Assembly: GCA_002439285.1 (NCBI GenBank)
Contig: DJTQ01000224.1
Span: 1 to 13,987 of the forward strand
Direction of reading: 5' to 3'
DNA from: Paenibacillaceae bacterium UBA6304
Lineage (GTDB): Bacteria > Bacillota > Bacilli > Paenibacillales > Paenibacillaceae
DNA length: 13,987 bases
Shown: in pieces, positions 1,084-9,470 of the stretch
Position numbering within the stretch: the first letter of the stretch is position 1
Layout of the letters: every line of letters begins with the position of its first letter
Notes under the pieces: model-generated
Seen by the model: the letters and a program-made list of their open reading frames with translations, nothing else
Told to the model about the DNA's origin: nothing
Database searches by the model: none
Program-made: the position numbers and the translations under genes

Positions 1084-1602
1084 TTAGCGCGGATTCACCT
1101 TCACCTGCGAGCCTTTGCCGCTCGACTGGATGCCGGTTTCTTTCACACCGACTTCTTTCAGATCGGTTAGCAGCCGTTCCAGGACGGCCTTTGCGGCAGC
1201 GGCTTCCTTCGCACCGGAAGCTTTGACGACGCACTGGACCGGCTTGCCGGACCGGAGCAGTTTATCGGCTTGGCGCAGCTTCGTGTCGTAATCATGTTCT
1301 TCGATATGGGCGGTAAAGCGAAGTTCTTTGACTTTCTCCTTGCTGGCGCGGCCGGATGCCCGGCCCGTGTCCGTCTTGCGTGCGGCGGCCGTTTCCTTCT
1401 GGGCGGCCGCCTTTGCTTTGCCTTTCGCCATTAAGCTGCAGGGCGGCGGGCTGCTCATCAAGGAGGTGCAGACCAGGTCCGCTCCGGTGGAGCGGGCCAT
1501 GGCCAGTGCCTCTACCCTGGAGACGATACCGAGTTTTTCACCTTTCAACCCTGTTAGTTCGACTTCGGATGCTTTAATTTGTTCGTTCATGAATACGGCC
1601 AC
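1084..1602 (-). CDS. Divergent translation initiation factor IF-3 paralogue
   Basis: The 172-residue protein has the two-domain layout of IF-3. The N-domain spans about 5-65, with NEQIKASEVEL, GEKLGIVSRVEALAMA, GADLVCTS and PPPCSLMAKGK matching the IF-3 pattern of 'INEEIR', 'LG', 'ALDLV' and 'PPVCRIMDYGK'. An Ala/Lys/Arg-rich linker covers about 60-90. The C-domain spans about 91-172, with VKELRF, IEEHDYDTKLRQADKLL and a C-terminal GKGSQVKVNP. The normally conserved basic FRGREM stretch, which contacts 16S rRNA in canonical IF-3, is replaced by KASGAKEAAAA (127-137), so ribosome binding should differ. The gene is not next to rpmI/rplT as a standard infC is, so this is an accessory paralogue. 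The GTG start at 1602 is chosen because AGGAGG lies 10 bases upstream; the ATG four codons later is too far from it. It starts 50 bases after the stop of the ubiquitin/SLH gene with no terminator between, so co-transcription is likely. Confidence 0.82.
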   Translation of the reverse strand: MAVFMNEQIKASEVELTGLKGEKLGIVSRVEALAMARSTGADLVCTSLMSSPPPCSLMAKGKAKAAAQKETAAARKTDTGRASGRASKEKVKELRFTAHIEEHDYDTKLRQADKLLRSGKPVQCVVKASGAKEAAAAKAVLERLLTDLKEVGVKETGIQSSGKGSQVKVNPR

Positions 1603-1652: not shown

Positions 1653-4172
1653 CTATATGAGCCCCGAGTTCTCTAGCAGGCGTTCTATAATCAGTGCGAT
1701 TTCGGCTCTGGACACATAAGCCTTCGGTTCAAGTATATTCCCGGTTCTTCCGGCAACTATGCCGGCCGATACGCTGGCTGCGATGCCGCTCTGCGCCCAA
1801 GGCGATGATTCGTCCGCATCTTTGAATGGGCTAAGTGCTCGCTCCACCGCTGGCGGTTCAGATAGGCCGGAATCCAGACCGGTAAGCTTCATGGCTTCAG
1901 CCACAATCGTCATAACCTGCTCGCGGGTAATCCGGTCATCCGGCCGGAATGTGCCGTCTTCAAATCCGGAGATCAACCCGTAAGCGACTGCGGTGCTGAT
2001 GTCGTTATTATACCAGTTGGTCGCCTGCACGTCCGTAAATTCCGATGAAGAATTGGATGGTTCAAGGCCTAATGCCCGGACAAGAATGGCAGTAAATTCA
2101 GCGCGGGTAATGTCGTCACTTGGACCAAATCTGCCGGAGTCTTGGCCCTCGATGATGAGTTTTGAGCCTAGACGGTTTATGGCGTCCTTCGCCCAATGGT
2201 TCGCTATGTCGGCAAATTGGACCGGATGCGAGATCAAGGCATACGTGCCGGTGTCCAGGCTGTTTAATCGGGCATACTTTTTACCGTCGCTTTGAATAAA
2301 GGAGGTTGGAACATGGCGGATGGTCCCGTCGGAGCCGATGGACACACCGGTCGTTATTTCGTTCTCATCCGTAGCATTTGGAAGGGGAGGGATGTCACGT
2401 GTCACATAACCGGCAAACTGCGTGATATCGACAACCGTATCTCCCTTTACTCCTCTAACCGCAAAATCGATCAGCGGGGTTACCAGCTCAGAGCCATTGC
2501 GTTTCGCCGCCTGTTTTGCCAACTGGACTTTGTCGGATTCCGCTTCGGAGACTTCGATCTGCACCAGGACATCTTGCGGAACCGCCTCTTTTCCCATTTG
2601 TTGCATTAAAGAGCTAAGATCCAAATGGGCGGCGGGCAACGTGAACACCGATAGTTTGGTATTCAGTACTAGCACAGTTCGCTTCTCCTTCATGAAGGCG
2701 GCCAGCGGTTCGTTCATTTCGGCTAGGATCGCGTCCAGTTCGGAATTAACGGAGATCGATATTATTGCATCTTCTACGGCCGCAAGCTGGTCGCGAAGTT
2801 TATCGGCATCGAGCGTAATCTTGGCAACTCTTTTTCCGTTGGACTCCGTAATGGAGCTGGAGCCGATATCTGCTGTCTTTCCATTGATCGTGAAGGTGAT
2901 ATCTGCCTGGTTTTTTGCCGGACTTTGAGGTTTGGGCGGGGTCTGAGATGATGGGGAGGCCGGAGTTGAATTATTGTTATTGCCCGGCGTTTGAACAGCC
3001 TGAATCGTTACCTTTGCAGCGGCGCTTGTTGCTGAAGCTGTCTTGTTGCCTGTTGCACGGTCGTTCGTATTGGTTAGGATCGCATAGAAATACATCGTTC
3101 CAACGGTTGCTGTAGACGGCAAATAGGTTGCACCCGTTGCTCCGATAATGGCTGTACCTCCGGTGACTTCGTTCTTCTCATTCCGGTACCATTGATAGCT
3201 CAGCACTCCTCCGTCACTTACGGCTGCCGCGACACTTAATGGCGAGGCGCTGCCGCCTGCGGTCAGCGTCTGATCGATCGGCTGCAGGCTTATAACCGGA
3301 ACCTCAGCATTGATAAGCTGAGCGTCGGTGGTGATGCTGACGATGTTGGAGATGCCTTCATGGGCTCCGCCGGTAACGACAAGCCGGAAATCGTAGGCCT
3401 TAGCGGGTATCAAACCCGTAACCGTAGCTGTCGCAGCATTTGCAGCAAGGGGTTCCGCTACAGCCGGCACCCAACTGTCCTCACCCGCAGGGGATTGCTC
3501 AATCCCGATCCGGGTTGCGCCGACGGCCTCCGGCCAGCTCAATGTAACGGATGTATCCGTTTTGGCTACGGTAGCTAGGCCGGTAATCGGTGTGGGGGCC
3601 GCACGATTTACGGTGACCATATATGTGAAGGTATTTGCGCTATTGATGGAAGAGGTTAGGCTAACCGTGATGATGTTGTCTCCCACCATTAAAGGTATGT
3701 CCGCTTCGGTCCCGCTGATCTCGTTGATCTTCACGGTTGCGGATGAATCTGCAGCTTCTGCCGAAACTCTGACGGAACTTGTATCGCTAGTCACGCTAGC
3801 ATGGTATTGCTGAATCGTGGGATCGAATTCGGGAGACAAAGTTCCGTGATTTATAGCCAGACTATTCAAGATGGGGGTGAGTTGCTTTAACACCAAATGC
3901 AGCGTCGATTCTTTTTGAATGTTATAGTCGGCCAACGTGCGGTCGTTCTCTAACTGCTTTCCGGCAAATATAAGCCTTTGCTGGTCGATGGGAATGCCCT
4001 CTTTATTCCATATTTTCTGCTTTACCTGTTCAATGGTTTCTTGGCTTTCCGTCTCAATTGTGATAGTTTTGCCGGTTAATGTTTTGACGAAAATCGACAT
4101 CGCAAACACTTCTTGTTGAAAGAGCAGTGCGATAATCAGCATACAGATCAATGAAGTGCCGAGCTTCTTCAC
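1653..4172 (-). CDS. Secreted SLH-anchored surface protein with N-terminal ubiquitin domain
   Basis: The product is 839 residues long from a GTG start, chosen because GAGGGGGA lies 6 bases upstream; a TTG five codons earlier overlaps that site and is less likely. Layout: signal peptide 1-24 (KK, hydrophobic core, VFA cleavage site); ubiquitin domain 25-96; cadherin-like beta-sandwich about 100-190 ([30 protein letters not shown]); FN3-like domain 195-283; Ig-like domain about 292-391 (SYQWYRN); Pro/Ser/Asn linker 393-422; an unrecognised region 423-650; and three SLH domains at about 652-700, 712-764 and 783-833, with the motifs ITRAE, ITREQ and VSRAE. SLH domains bind pyruvylated secondary wall polymer, so the ubiquitin module should be displayed on the cell surface. 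By manual alignment 57 of the first 71 ubiquitin positions are identical to human ubiquitin. Lys6, 11, 27, 29, 33, 48 and 63 are all kept; the C-terminal Gly-Gly is replaced by Thr-Pro, so conjugation is not expected. The function is unknown; an adhesion or host-interaction role is inference. Confidence 0.95.
3873..4100 (-). other. Ubiquitin-like domain coding segment
   Basis: This segment encodes residues 25-100 of the surface protein, aligned without gaps to ubiquitin positions 1-76. Differences from human ubiquitin within 1-71 are at positions 2, 15, 17, 19, 20, 21, 25, 28, 31, 32, 38, 52, 53 and 57. Runs 3-14, 39-51 and 58-71 are unchanged and include the Ile44 patch, Lys48 and Lys63. Positions 72-76 read KQLTP instead of RLRGG. 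Ser19 and Ala57 are the residues found in plant ubiquitin. A hand count gives 89 G/C among the 213 bases for positions 1-71 (about 42%), visibly lower than the neighbouring coding DNA. The assignment is direct sequence reading; the donor lineage is not determinable here. Confidence 0.95.
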
Positions 4173-4215
4173 GGGAATCCCCCTCAAATTAACAATAATT
4201 AGAAATATACAAACA

Positions 4216-4221
4216 ATTATA
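4216..4221 (-). promoter_or_regulatory. Candidate -10 box for the ubiquitin/SLH gene
   Basis: Read leftward, a perfect TATAAT lies 44 bases upstream of the GTG start in an AT-rich divergent intergenic region. The matching -35 position is poor (TGTATT at 17-base spacing), so sigma-A recognition is plausible but not certain. Confidence 0.4.
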
Positions 4222-4337
4222 ATTACAACTTGAAAATAAATACAGATTTAATATCCTGATTTTTTGCATTTTGTTTTCTGTCTTGGAAAAAACTAAAATA
4301 TAAGATAATCAAGGATATAAGAGAAGGAGAACCTAGG

Positions 4338-5801
4338 ATGCAAAAAACAACGGATGCAGGCTGGAACTTCGATAACAGTTACGCTACTTTGCCGGATACC
4401 TTTTTTGCCAAGCTTTCTCCAACCCGGGTGCGCGCTCCGAAATTGGCGATTTTAAATCACTCTTTGGCCGAGTCGCTCGGCCTGGACGTGGAGGCGCTGC
4501 AAAGTGAAGACGGGGTGGCCGTGATGGCGGGCAATCAGGTGCCGGAGGGAGCACTACCGCTGGCGCAGGCCTATGCCGGGCACCAATTCGGCTACTTTAC
4601 GATGCTGGGCGACGGCCGGGCTCTGCTGCTCGGCGAACAGATCACCCCTTCGGGCGAGCGGTTCGACATTCAGCTTAAAGGCGCCGGAAGAACGCCATAC
4701 TCCCGTTCGGGCGACGGCCGGGCTGCACTTGGTCCGATGCTGCGCGAATACATCATCAGCGAGGCGATGCATGCATTAGGTATTCCCACGACGCGCAGCC
4801 TGGCGGTGGTATCGAGCGGGCAGCCCGTGATCCGGGAGCAGGATCTTCCCGGCGCGATCTTGACCCGCGTGGCAGCCAGCCACATTCGGGTCGGTACTTT
4901 TCAGTACGCCGCTCAGCAGGGGATCGATGATCTCCGGGCTTTAGCGGACTATACGATACAGAGGCACTATCCTGATGTGGAGACGGAGGAGAATCGCTAT
5001 CTTTCTCTGCTAAGAAAAGTGATCGAACGGCAGGCCGGGTTAATTGCCCAATGGCAGCTTGTTGGATTCGTGCACGGAGTCATGAACACCGACAACATGA
5101 CCCTTAGCGGGGAGACCATCGATTATGGTCCATGCGCATTCCTGGACACGTATGATCCGGCAACCGTGTTTAGCTCCATTGACCGTCATGGCCGCTATGC
5201 TTACGGCAATCAGCCGAAAATCGCTGCGTGGAATCTGGCGAGATTGGCGGAGAGCCTGTTGCCGCTGCTCGATGAAGACGAGAAGAAGGCAATTTCAATC
5301 GCCGAGGATGCGATGGAGGGATTCGCCGATTTATTCCACCGGAATTGGCTGGCGGGAATGAGGGCGAAGCTGGGCCTGTTCAACGAAGAGCCGGAGGATG
5401 AGGCGCTGATCCAAGACCTGCTTCGCTTGATGCAGGAGCACCAAGCGGATTACACCAATACGTTTGTCGCGTTGACGTTCGGACACGCCGAGGGCGGCAA
5501 CCTGTTCGGCACGGAGGGATTCACCCGCTGGCAAGAGTCTTGGTATGCAAGGCTTAACAGCCAGCCGGAGGATGAGGCCGCCCGGCAGCAATTGATGCGT
5601 AGCAGCAATCCGGCGGTCATACCCCGCAACCACCGGGTAGAAGAAGCCCTGGAAGCTGCGGAGAAGCAGGGAGACTACAGCGTGATGGAGCGGCTACTCG
5701 AAGTCCTCTCGAATCCGTACGCGCATTTCCCCGGACAGGCTGAATACGCCGAGCTGCCTCCGCAATCGGACTGTGCCTACCGGACGTTTTGCGGAACCTG
5801 A
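4338..5801 (+). CDS. selO: SelO/YdiU protein adenylyltransferase (UPF0061)
   Basis: The 487-residue protein is full length for bacterial SelO. SelO has a kinase fold that binds ATP in a flipped orientation and transfers AMP to Ser, Thr or Tyr of target proteins, with links to redox stress. Visible hallmarks are [10 protein letters not shown] (78-87), [20 protein letters not shown] with the nucleotide-binding Lys114, REYIISEA with Glu137, [13 protein letters not shown] with Arg177 and Arg184, the HGVMNTDNM loop with Asp252 and Asn253, and [10 protein letters not shown] with metal-binding Asp262. All expected active-site residues are present. The C-terminus is FCGT, with an ordinary cysteine and no selenocysteine. 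The start is supported by AAGGAG 8 bases upstream. It is transcribed divergently from the ubiquitin/SLH gene across a 165-base AT-rich region and appears monocistronic. Targets cannot be predicted. Confidence 0.95.
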
Positions 5802-6249: not shown

Positions 6250-8640
6250 ATGATCAGAGCGTCGGAAAATCAGGAGTTTTATGAACTTGCCAGCCCCACC
6301 CTTCTTCCGAAGGCTTCGGGATTTCTATGGAACGAGAAGATGATGATTCATATGAACTGCCGGGGATATGCGGTGGCTCAGTACATGCAGCCGGAACCGG
6401 CGAAATATTCGTATGCGCCGAATTTGGAGGCGAAGACGTTTATGCAGCCCGAGCAGCCTTACTATGCGCATCATCCCGGACGTTTTGTGTACGTGAAGGA
6501 CGAGGAGAGCGGGGAGATTTTCTCGGCGCCCTACGAACCTGTTCGGGTCCAGGCGGACAGCTATACCTTTGCCACAGGAAAGAGCAGCATCATGTGGAAG
6601 GTGGAATGCAAGGGCATTCGGATTGAAATGAGCCTGAGTTTGCCTAAAGAAGATCCCATGGAGCTTTGGCGCGTGAAGGTGACTAACCTCTCGCAAAAAC
6701 AAAGAAAATTGAGCATCTATCCGTATTTTACGGTCGGTTATATGTCTTGGATGAATCAGTCCGGGGAGTATCATGAGGAGCTGCAAGCGATTGTCTGTTC
6801 TTCGATCACGCCTTATCAGAAATATCAGGATTACGCCAAAATCAAAGAATTCAGCGATAAAACCTTCCTGCTGGCGGACCGCAAACCGGTTGCTTGGGAA
6901 GTGAACCAGGAAGCGTTTGAAGGAGAAGGCGGTATTACGGGACCGTCGGCCCTCCGTGAGGAGGAACTGGCCAAAGGGGATGCGCGGTACGAAACGCCGG
7001 TGGGCGCTTTGCAGTACCGGATTCATCTGGCGCCTGGCGAAGAGGAGGCGTATCGCTTTATTTTTGGACCCGCCAAGAACGAGGAACAAATCGCTCAAAT
7101 CCGCAGCGAGTATTTTATAAAGAGTAACGGAAATGGTGAGGACGGCTTCGCGATGGCGGAGCGGGAATACGATCAGTACATCCAAGAGGGCAGAGGGTGC
7201 ATCGAAATCAAGACCCCGGATCCCGATCTCGATAATTTCGTCAATCACTGGCTGCCTCGGCAAGTGTATTACCATGGGCAGACGAATCGTCTTACGACCG
7301 ATCCTCAAACCCGCAATTTCCTGCAGGATCATATGGGGATGAGTTATATTAAACCGCAGTTGGCCCGGGAGGCCTTCCTTATTGCGCTCAGCCAGCAGAA
7401 GTCCGACGGTTCGATGCCGGACGGAATCATTCTTCATAAGGATGCCGAACTGAAGTATATTAATCAGGTTCCGCATACCGATCATTGCGTATGGCTCCCG
7501 ATTTGCCTTAGCACTTATCTGGATGAAAGCAACGACTATGCGATCCTGGAGGAGAAGGTTCCATATGCTGATGGAGCGGAGAGTGATACGGAAACCGTTC
7601 TTGAGCATATTCATAAAGCGATGCGTTGGCTTGCAAGCGACCGGGATGAGCGGGGATTGAACTATATCAACCAGGGCGACTGGTGCGACCCGATGAATAT
7701 GGTGGGTTACAAAGGCAAAGGCGTGTCGGGATGGCTGACCATCGCTACCGCTTATGCTTTCAAGGTATGGGCGGATATTTGTGAACGAGGCGGACATGCG
7801 GAGATTGCCCAGGAATACCGGACGGCGGCGGAGACCACCAACGAGGTCATCAACCGCTATTTATGGGATGGCGAATGGTATGCGCGGGGGATCACGGATG
7901 ATAATGTGGTGTTCGGAATCAGCACGGATCAGGAAGGCCGGATATTCATCAATCCGCAGGGCTGGTCGCTGCTTAGCGGTGCCGCCGATCCGGAGAAGAA
8001 GGAGAAGCTGATGCGCGCGGTGACCGAGCAGTTGGAGACGCCGTACGGGGTCGAAAAGCTGGCGCCATCCTACACTTCGATGCGGGAAGACGTGGGCCGG
8101 GTCACCCAGAAGCACCCGGGATCGGCTGAGAACGGCGCTGTCTATAATCATGCGGCGGCATTCTATATTTACGCGCTATATGCCGTGGGAGAGAAGGACA
8201 ATGCATATCGCCTGCTGAGAAAAATGCTTCCGGGACCGACGATGGAGGATATCGTCCAGCGCGGCCAATTGCCGATCTTCATCCCGAATTATTATCGCGG
8301 GGCTTACCGGCAATTCCCACGTACAGCCGGGCGGTCCAGCCATCTGTTCAATACGGGCACGGTGCCGTGGGTGTACCGTTGCTTAATTGACGGCCTGTTC
8401 GGGGTGCAGGGAACTCCTGAAGGCATTCGCATTAACCCGCAACTTCCCGCTGAATGGGCGGAGGCTTCGGTCAAACGGGAGTTCAGAGGCGCCACCCTGC
8501 AGATTGAAATCAAACGGGAGTCCGGCATAACAGCAACGGAGGTTTACGCCAATGGCGTCTATTTAGAAGGTGGCGTTCTTAGCGATTTGAAGCCGGGGAC
8601 GGAATATAAAGTGTCTGTTAAAATTCCGGTATCGGAGTAA
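6250..8640 (+). CDS. GH94 glycoside phosphorylase, probably cellobionic acid phosphorylase-like
   Basis: The product is 796 residues. ATG at 6250 is preferred over the in-frame ATG at 6232 because AAAAGAGG lies 6 bases before it, and the earlier ATG has no ribosome binding site. The layout fits GH94: an N-terminal beta-sandwich to about 270, an (alpha/alpha)6 catalytic barrel at about 320-700, and a C-terminal beta domain. QGDWCDPMN (475-483) contains the expected general-acid Asp480. YNHAAAF (632-638) and SSHLFNTGTVPW (696-707) match phosphate-site regions. No signal peptide is seen, so it acts in the cytosol, splitting a beta-glucoside with phosphate to glucose 1-phosphate. The N-terminal text (MNCRGYAVAQYMQPEPAKY, PYYAHHPGRFVYVKDEESGE) and GDWCDPMNMVG resemble cellobionate phosphorylases as I recall them, which release gluconate. 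Cellobiose or another acceptor remains possible. GH94 membership is near certain; the substrate is a moderate-confidence inference. Confidence 0.88.
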   Translation: MIRASENQEFYELASPTLLPKASGFLWNEKMMIHMNCRGYAVAQYMQPEPAKYSYAPNLEAKTFMQPEQPYYAHHPGRFVYVKDEESGEIFSAPYEPVRVQADSYTFATGKSSIMWKVECKGIRIEMSLSLPKEDPMELWRVKVTNLSQKQRKLSIYPYFTVGYMSWMNQSGEYHEELQAIVCSSITPYQKYQDYAKIKEFSDKTFLLADRKPVAWEVNQEAFEGEGGITGPSALREEELAKGDARYETPVGALQYRIHLAPGEEEAYRFIFGPAKNEEQIAQIRSEYFIKSNGNGEDGFAMAEREYDQYIQEGRGCIEIKTPDPDLDNFVNHWLPRQVYYHGQTNRLTTDPQTRNFLQDHMGMSYIKPQLAREAFLIALSQQKSDGSMPDGIILHKDAELKYINQVPHTDHCVWLPICLSTYLDESNDYAILEEKVPYADGAESDTETVLEHIHKAMRWLASDRDERGLNYINQGDWCDPMNMVGYKGKGVSGWLTIATAYAFKVWADICERGGHAEIAQEYRTAAETTNEVINRYLWDGEWYARGITDDNVVFGISTDQEGRIFINPQGWSLLSGAADPEKKEKLMRAVTEQLETPYGVEKLAPSYTSMREDVGRVTQKHPGSAENGAVYNHAAAFYIYALYAVGEKDNAYRLLRKMLPGPTMEDIVQRGQLPIFIPNYYRGAYRQFPRTAGRSSHLFNTGTVPWVYRCLIDGLFGVQGTPEGIRINPQLPAEWAEASVKREFRGATLQIEIKRESGITATEVYANGVYLEGGVLSDLKPGTEYKVSVKIPVSE

Positions 8641-8714
8641 AAAATATACGAGATGGAAACTTTTACTTATCGATAAACGTCTGAAAGGGAGATGATAAAG
8701 AGAGGAGAGAGATG

Positions 8715-9470
8715 ATGTACTCACTTAGAAGGATAGGATGGATGGTGATCGGTGCCATCATGGTGGTGATGCTTGCAGCTTGCAGCGGAAATTCCAACAC
8801 TACGCCGGAACCAAAGGGGCAGGTACAAGACCAGCCGCAAAATCAACCGCAGAATCAACCGCAGAATCAACCACAAAATCAGCCACAAAACGAGTCCGAA
8901 GGGAATACTCTGGATAATGATACGACGAACCAGGAACCAAGCGAAGCTCCGGAGGAGGGCACTCCGCCGACAGCACTTGAAGCAGCCTCTACAGTTATCA
9001 AAGCCCTTAAGGCTGGAAATATGGAGACGGTGGCAAACTGGGCGGATATGGAGCAAGGGGTTCGGTTCTCGCCCTATGGAAATGTCGATAAGGAGAAGGA
9101 CCTCGTGTTCTCGCGTGATGAACTGAATGGCTTAATGAAGGATACTACGAAGCACCTATGGCGGGAGTTTCCCGGTAACGGAGATAAGGTTGAAATGACT
9201 TATGCGGAGTACCACGAGCGTTTTGTCTACGATGAAGATTTTATTACCGAAGCCAAGATTGTGGAGAACGAAGGAGCAGGTCCAGGGGGAGTCGGCAATT
9301 TACTTGATGTTTATCCCAAGGATCAATATGATTTCGTTGAATATCATATCGCGGGCAGTGATCCGGACGATGCCGAAAGTAAGGATTGGCGCACTCTGCG
9401 CCTGGTCTTCAAGAGAATCGGGCAAGACCACTCGCTTGTGGGCATTATCCACGATCAATGGACACCATAA
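8715..9470 (+). CDS. Lipoprotein with QPQN repeat and conserved C-terminal domain, function unknown
   Basis: Two adjacent ATGs (8712, 8715) follow GAGGAG; the second is 7 bases away and preferred, giving 251 residues. A signal peptide with positive charges (LRR) and a hydrophobic core ends in the lipobox LAAC with lipidated Cys23. A low-complexity spacer contains five tandem QPQN units (residues 40-59), then an acidic Thr/Glu/Pro stretch. The folded part, about residue 85 to the end, carries VIKALKAGNMETVANWAD, RFSPYGNVD, TYAEYHERFVYDEDF, EYHIAGSDPDD, DWRTLRLVFK and a terminal GIIHDQWTP. I recognise this pattern from uncharacterised Firmicutes lipoproteins but know no function. It should be tethered to the outer membrane face, with the spacer crossing part of the wall. 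It lies 74 bases after the GH94 gene and could share its transcript. Confidence 0.85.
   Translation: MYSLRRIGWMVIGAIMVVMLAACSGNSNTTPEPKGQVQDQPQNQPQNQPQNQPQNQPQNESEGNTLDNDTTNQEPSEAPEEGTPPTALEAASTVIKALKAGNMETVANWADMEQGVRFSPYGNVDKEKDLVFSRDELNGLMKDTTKHLWREFPGNGDKVEMTYAEYHERFVYDEDFITEAKIVENEGAGPGGVGNLLDVYPKDQYDFVEYHIAGSDPDDAESKDWRTLRLVFKRIGQDHSLVGIIHDQWTP
8832..8891 (+). repeat. Five 12-base tandem repeats encoding QPQN
   Basis: Five in-frame units of the form CARCCRCARAAY run back to back, with third-position variation only, so all encode Gln-Pro-Gln-Asn. Unit number could change by slippage without breaking the frame, altering spacer length of the lipoprotein. Confidence 0.9.

Follow-up and report, generated by a model that had tools for sequence, protein, structure and literature searches.

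How a ubiquitin comes to stand at the front of a bacterial cell-wall protein, and what it might do there, is the question raised by a gene of Paenibacillaceae bacterium UBA6304. Ubiquitin is usually regarded as a protein of fungi, plants, and animals, yet an equally precise mode of ubiquitin export appears to exist in other bacteria that are not related to this one. The whole stretch of DNA analyzed here (13,987 nucleotides) is called the window. The gene occupies 1653..4172 of its minus strand and encodes a ubiquitin-SLH surface protein of 839 amino acids. Of the two candidate starts, the TTG at 4187 given in the open reading frame list and the GTG at 4172, the latter is better placed, lying six bases 3' of a ribosome-binding-site-like GAGGGGG (4179..4185, minus strand), and the orthologue of Fontibacillus phaseoli is likewise annotated with a GTG start and 839 amino acids.

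All parts of the protein are encoded on the minus strand. The first 24 residues (4101..4172) form a predicted signal peptide, called by our own heuristic of a hydrophobic core and the (-3,-1) rule, which ends in EVFA, with V in position -3 and A in position -1, and directly abuts Met1 of the ubiquitin. The ubiquitin domain itself (amino acids 25-96; 3885..4100), supported by BLAST, PF00240, and AlphaFold, corresponds to ubiquitin residues 1-72. It is followed by a Cadherin-like domain, PF12733 (amino acids 102-190; 3603..3869; 49.7 bits against a cut-off of 24.2), and by a beta-strand-rich FN3/Ig-like stalk (amino acids 191-400; 2973..3602), the blocks of which mostly reached pLDDT values of 79-90. 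No Pfam fn3 match was obtained in the window protein itself, and precomputed fn3 matches (PF00041) are present in some of the orthologues. A linker and a conserved region N-terminal of the SLH repeats (amino acids 401-645; 2238..2972) are common to SLH relatives without ubiquitin, as visual inspection of P0130 and P0134 indicates. The C-terminal three-SLH region (amino acids 646-839; 1656..2237), the presumed cell-wall anchor, matched PF00395 in three stretches (E 2.3e-36), the best being amino acids 712-753. In the Pfam scan of the window ORFs, the SLH and Cadherin-like domains share one open frame with the ubiquitin, and the heuristic signal peptide together with three SLH domains are the features of an SLH-anchored surface protein. 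The full-length AlphaFold model has a mean pLDDT of 58.7, with low confidence in all regions but the ubiquitin and the stalk, and the position of the ubiquitin at the outer end is therefore derived from the order of the domains.

The sequence-only reading had put a ubiquitin at 3873-4100 with 57 identities to the human protein; the domain lies within that span, and BLAST likewise gave 57/72 identities (79.17% over 72 columns). The description of it as near-identical is, however, too strong for a domain that is 79% identical and lacks the terminal RLRGG, the sequence reading LVLKQLTP in place of the LRLRGG conjugation tail. PF00240 matched with 97.2 bits (cut-off 25.4; E 4.8e-28) among the window ORFs, and the window protein is its only match in the 4.3-Mb assembly. 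The AlphaFold model of the domain (pLDDT 94.9) superimposes on 1ubq with a TM-score of 0.98 at 0.5 Å. The best 60 of the 369 solved-structure sequences matching the domain are ubiquitins or ubiquitin-based proteins. A domain search of the protein database gave 6919 matches, of which the 120 listed are polyubiquitin-like multi-repeat proteins and carry no information on bacterial members. Sequence, profile, and fold thus agree with the earlier view that this is a true ubiquitin and not a protein of the ThiS or MoaD type. The cytoplasmic beta-grasp proteins of bacteria, i.e., those of the Bil/Bub operons, YukD/EsaB, ThiS, and MoaD, show low identity to ubiquitin and have E1/E2-like partners or a sulfur-carrier tail. 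They share the beta-grasp fold with the window ubiquitin, but no such neighbor is found among the ten window ORFs, nor are adjacent E1-, E2-, or protease-like genes by Pfam. The neighbors recognized by Pfam are a CNNM transporter, an IF-3 paralogue, SelO, GH94, two epimerase-like genes, and an aldo-keto reductase, with 2/10 ORFs giving no match. UQ_con had no match in the genome (85.88% complete), and the control genomes gave none either; two ThiF-family genes are present, a family also matched in 12/14 control genomes.

That the gene is an assembly chimera or eukaryotic contamination is a notion that hardly needs to be entertained any longer. The window is the whole of a small contig in an assembly of 452 contigs and 85.88% completeness, and several other matches in MAGs that have no signal peptide (e.g., the polyubiquitin L051) do look like contaminants. 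Against this, the frame is continuous, the same protein and architecture occur in nine further database clusters, and the gene order is the same in F. phaseoli, where the gene is flanked by the same CNNM transporter, IF-3 paralogue, SelO, and GH94 genes; the claim that the contig is genuine was thus borne out. In Paenibacillus faecis the gene is located at a different site, and a distance of about 36 kb separates it from SelO on its contig.

Orthologues were sought in the protein database with the protein region behind the ubiquitin as query; 7994 candidates were scored and 72 proteins found, 10 of which, counting the window protein, contain PF00240. These ten cover 99-100% of the searched region, where the other nine are 47-69% identical to the window protein. 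The nine align with it from end to end (53-71% identity), and all have the signal-ubiquitin-stalk-SLH architecture; five belong to Fontibacillus or Paenibacillus. Both the PF00240 domain and the exact signal junction are kept in all ten. Other SLH surface proteins of Paenibacillaceae resemble the window protein in their Ig/FN3-like stalk and SLH domains, and P0130 and P0134 share its C-terminal half, but the ten-member clade has a ubiquitin and a Cadherin-like domain at the N-terminus; the four ubiquitin-less relatives scanned (P0126, P0130, P0134, and P0135) lack the Cadherin-like domain as well. In the Paenibacillus protein P0130, two cohesins occupy the N-terminal slot ahead of an Ig/SLH half of the same type. 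Cohesins are known binding modules, and the N-terminal slot of this design thus seems to accept exchangeable binding modules.

Within this family the ubiquitin is the best conserved folded part. Between the window protein and that of F. phaseoli its identity is 87.5%, compared with 56-73% in the other folded parts, and with P. faecis the corresponding values are 74% (53/72) and 47-57%. In the F. phaseoli comparison, fourfold sites are conserved too (17/21 agreeing in the ubiquitin versus 149/267 elsewhere in the gene), and part of the ubiquitin conservation there is therefore not due to selection on the protein. In the P. faecis comparison, 6/18 fourfold sites agree in the ubiquitin and 80/220 in the remaining gene.

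The sequence-only reading had also proposed transfer from a eukaryote. As judged from identity and fold, a eukaryotic ubiquitin is by far the likely source of the domain, and this part of the proposal is strongly implied. Direct transfer to this lineage, on the other hand, did not gain support. In the tree of 111 ubiquitin domains (72 columns, with human NEDD8 as the sole outgroup and no archaeal ubiquitin included), 4/108 inner branches were starred and bacterial and eukaryotic rows interleave, and in the topology tests a single clade of bacteria (p-AU 0.41) was not rejected, nor was a single clade of Paenibacillaceae (p 0.588). Since a single bacterial clade was not rejected, the gene may have reached the lineage of the window from another bacterium. 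In view of the weakly resolved tree and the unrejected clades no number of transfers is claimed; many captures, or one capture followed by spread among bacteria, are both compatible with the tree.

Base composition bears on the age of the capture. The ubiquitin part has an overall GC content of 0.417 compared with 0.531 in the remaining gene, which, together with the patchy distribution described below, could point to a recent chance fusion of a eukaryotic ubiquitin fragment that was kept without function, although the amino acids encoded may explain the difference. However, third-position GC is 0.556 in the ubiquitin part and 0.561 in the remainder, which speaks against a very recent arrival; across the whole gene it is lower than in five other window genes (0.607-0.684). 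Moreover, all ten family proteins retain the domain and the junction, and the ubiquitin is still 74% identical to that of P. faecis where one third of the fourfold sites agree. Neutral capture of this kind was already disfavored and is considered highly improbable.

Among related genomes the gene is patchy. PF00240 was found in 4/40 genomes of the genus, in 11/392 genomes drawn from the order, and in 5/398 drawn from the phylum. The order set comprised eight signal-ubiquitin proteins (G000, G015, G016, G071, G166, G203, G280, and G337), two internal diverged copies of about 50% identity (G001 and G103), and one weak match (G098). The phylum set contained signal-ubiquitin proteins in the own genome and in G572, and weak PF00240 matches in G449, G487, and G646. 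A wider scan with alignment A1, covering 84,980 species with one genome each, matched at least 593 stretches, 375 of which encode a relative of the ubiquitin domain, contaminants included. The best 80 of these 375 loci, combined with those from the order and the phylum, yielded 99 ubiquitin copies once L022 and L046, duplicates of L008 and L009, had been dropped. Being the best-scoring part of the scan, the set is biased to close matches, and many of its members are MAGs. Named strains in it are Dyella acidiphila 7MK23, Dyella sp. OK004 and ASV24, Rhodobacter amnigenus HSP-20, Pseudohaliea rubra DSM 19751, Rhodoferax lacus, two Conexibacter, three Cohnella, Pedobacter cryoconitis S3M1, Ruminococcus albus 8, and Verrucomicrobia bacterium IMCC26134.

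A hydrophobic signal-like segment precedes the ubiquitin in 80 of these 99 copies (75 loci); the other 19, which include probable contaminants such as the four-repeat polyubiquitin L051, were left out of the analyses of signal-bearing copies. In 76/80 the (-3,-1) rule of signal peptidase was obeyed exactly at ubiquitin Met1. This looser rule also fitted 41/80 copies at the next-best offset, -2, whereas the strict A/V-x-A pattern was found at Met1 in 61/80 and in no more than 13/80 at each of the remaining offsets between -8 and +8. What follows the ubiquitin is varied. The Pfam scan covered 72 of the 80 (L008, L042, L065, L067, the second copy of L059, and three of L099 were left out; L042 and L085 lacked a recognizable start codon, and their entries begin with Met1 of the ubiquitin) and recognized SLH in 12, an autotransporter beta-domain in 11, a dockerin in five, and IPTL-CTERM in three. 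Some of these proteins are minimal, such as the 169-residue signal-ubiquitin-dockerin protein L025, the 129-residue signal-ubiquitin-IPTL-CTERM protein L043, and L053, L069, and L074, in which the ubiquitin precedes an autotransporter barrel with no further Pfam passenger. Eight genes in five loci (L060, L064, L070, L080, and four in L099) encode an exported ubiquitin alone. The window protein thus fits as one case of a wider set of putatively exported bacterial ubiquitins rather than an isolated one.

The four L099 genes of P. cryoconitis S3M1 are adjacent (4186-5585); in three of them the ubiquitin stops with residue 72, and in the fourth with residue 73 (Pro). Clostridial ubiquitins with dockerins are found in L025 by Pfam and in L036 and L089 by eye. 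The only match in 72,556 plasmid records, pRUMAL01 of R. albus 7 (L150, 3926-4666), is an exported ubiquitin with a dockerin gene and a gene of transposase type close by. No match was obtained in 50,697 phage records. Of the 18 IMG/VR loci, seven (L133 and L136-L141) show by eye a signal-like segment before the ubiquitin; one near-identical version, with IPTL-CTERM in L137, came from three samples. These contigs, binned as viral, could reflect phage carriage or misbinning. Eight viral contigs (L142-L149) share a 96-codon frame whose product, a diverged ubiquitin-like protein with 41% identity where it aligns, has no signal peptide. Internal ubiquitin-like domains of about 50% identity to ubiquitin are located in L010 (about 8246-8452) and L011 (about 8774-8995), within long frames (1304 and 1709 codons) whose products resemble, by eye, repeat-plus-SLH proteins.

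Over the 80 signal-bearing copies, conservation falls off where the globular fold ends, at about R72, and most copies have no conjugation tail. The residues at the end of the fold are largely retained (L69 in 80/80, H68 in 78/80, V70 in 72/80, and R72 in 68/80), whereas L73 is present in 35/80, R74 in 34/80, G75 in 23/80, G76 in 9/80, and both glycines in 7/80. All seven lysines are kept in 60/80 copies. L8, R42, I44, K48, H68, and V70 form what we take to be the ordinary ubiquitin face, used by eukaryotic ubiquitin-binding domains, and L8, I44, H68, and V70 are all intact in 67/80. With preset lists of I44-face, buried, and exposed residues that were not computed from a structure, the 13 I44-face residues of the ten-member family are 97.7% identical to human ubiquitin compared with 70% for a further 39 exposed residues (Mann-Whitney p 0.003), and 10/13 versus 17/39 sites are invariant (Fisher p 0.037). 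Eleven of the 22 variable exposed sites fall at positions 16-32, around the helix. By the same lists, no significant excess of the face over other exposed residues was detected in all 80 copies (0.916 versus 0.870, p 0.55), where the core reached 0.954, and none in the 14 most diverged copies (0.777 versus 0.777). The face is lost in L017, a signal-bearing copy of the same bacterial family (S8, V44, Q68, and I70), and L8, I44, H68, and V70 are lost in the internal copies L010 and L011.

From these data we tentatively favor, at a strength somewhat short of an even chance, a non-conjugatable ubiquitin that the cell wall carries as a binding head. In this scheme a ubiquitin gene derived from a eukaryote would have been put behind a bacterial Sec signal peptide and onto the cadherin-like/FN3/Ig-like stalk with its three SLH domains. 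Signal peptidase I would cut between VFA and M, and the mature protein would then start with the native Met1 of ubiquitin. The SLH domains would attach the protein to the wall, displaying the ubiquitin at its outer end, outside the cell, where the I44 face (L8, R42, I44, K48, H68, and V70) could bind a partner non-covalently. What can be read from the sequence of this scheme is the predicted architecture with its wall anchor, the export signal, the exact junction, the lack of a conjugation tail, and the retention of the face in the own family. The exact junction in the window and in 76/80 copies, the lost tail, and the conservation of the ubiquitin above other folded parts of its own family all argue for a binding head, as do the face retention in the ten members, the P. 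faecis fourfold comparison (with 18 sites only), and the cohesins of P0130 in the same slot. The fit of offset -2 in 41/80 copies weakens the argument from the junction.

It could also be that the ubiquitin is a structural or secretory cap, i.e., a small and very stable N-terminal domain, resistant to proteases, which shields the protein or acts as a spacer and whose surface chemistry is irrelevant. Its N-terminal position behind the signal peptide in all 80 signal-bearing copies is consistent with this, and so is the order of conservation over those copies, in which the core exceeds other exposed residues and the excess of the face is not significant; L017 and the internal L010 and L011 retain the fold and not the face. 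The missing excess and these losses of the face also count against the binding head. However, eight genes encode exported ubiquitin alone, and the scanned forms with a dockerin, with IPTL-CTERM, and, in several cases, with an autotransporter domain showed no other recognizable cargo. These minimal relatives count in favor of a binding head, since a ubiquitin that is sometimes the sole recognized cargo is unlikely to be a mere spacer. Together with the preferential retention of the I44 face in the ten-member family, they make the cap an unlikely explanation, though one that deserves to be taken seriously.

The best described relative is BfUbb of Bacteroides fragilis, which PMC3352274 and PMC5705921 present as a free protein of 76 amino acids with a C-terminal Cys and 63% identity to human ubiquitin. 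It binds human E1 in vitro according to the former (PMC3352274), and it has no terminal glycines and inhibits growth within the species according to the latter (PMC5705921). BfUbb and the window protein have in common a eukaryotic-type ubiquitin, the absence of a terminal Gly-Gly, and a Sec signal peptide ending directly before ubiquitin Met1, which in the window is judged by the (-3,-1) rule. Unlike it, the window protein is 839 amino acids long, SLH-anchored, and 79% identical to human ubiquitin. An antibacterial weapon of this type, in which the wall-bound ubiquitin head would inhibit competing bacteria on contact, would agree with the shared design of Met1 cut and missing glycines in a protein that, according to PMC5705921, inhibits sensitive B. 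fragilis strains. BfUbb producers seem to need no immunity protein (PMC5705921), so that a missing one is no objection here. Antimicrobial effects of extracellular ubiquitin and its peptides are reported in PMC10892293, and presence in 4/40 genomes of the genus would suit a competition gene. BfUbb is free and diffusible, however, and a head bound through SLH domains would reach the inner target of another cell less easily; the window protein also lacks the C-terminal Cys described for BfUbb. We regard such a weapon as quite unlikely.

If the protein is indeed a binding head, its partner may be guessed. BfUbb acts on other bacteria and binds human E1 in vitro, and either kind of partner is therefore possible; a eukaryotic cell outside (a grazing protist, a fungus, a plant, or a gut host) appears somewhat more likely than a competing bacterium, so that within the binding-head reading the eukaryote-directed version is the likelier half. 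A broader proposal, possible though less likely than not, is that eukaryotic-type ubiquitin is exported across many bacterial phyla as a head with a function of its own, its tail cut after about R72, the cleavage site exactly at Met1, and the anchor varied (SLH, autotransporter barrel, cellulosomal dockerin, or IPTL-CTERM) or missing. The shared job would be the non-covalent engagement of extracellular ubiquitin-binding partners, with eukaryotes that graze on or host the bacteria as the likeliest source of these. If even part of the set acts extracellularly, ubiquitin would play a second role, apart from conjugation, as a ligand on bacterial surfaces. Carriers such as F. phaseoli, P. faecis, Dyella, Cohnella, P. 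cryoconitis, and R. albus are named strains or species and allow direct testing.

The sequence-only reading knew of no characterized wall-anchored ubiquitin, and our literature survey agrees. The matches listed from the open-access literature, with most subscription journals and all preprints outside its scope, include PMC3352274, PMC5705921, PMC1949818, PMC11354881, PMC4378268, and PMC10892293; among them no account was found of a ubiquitin anchored to the wall, nor of exported ubiquitins as a class that spans bacterial phyla. Secreted ubiquitin-extension effectors of Globodera, a plant-parasitic nematode, as outlined in PMC5705921, are similar in that a signal peptide precedes an exported ubiquitin, but they are eukaryotic and free and carry a cleavable extension of 12 amino acids.

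Two further genes of the window may be mentioned. At 8712-9470 (plus strand), an ORF that has no Pfam match looks lipoprotein-like by eye and contains a repeated QNQP stretch. The IF-3 paralogue next to the ubiquitin gene (1084-1602, minus strand) is a second, diverged infC-like gene, its IF3_C match reaching 48.5 bits compared with 126 bits for the copy on contig C335, and it adjoins the ubiquitin gene in F. phaseoli too, with 88% identity.
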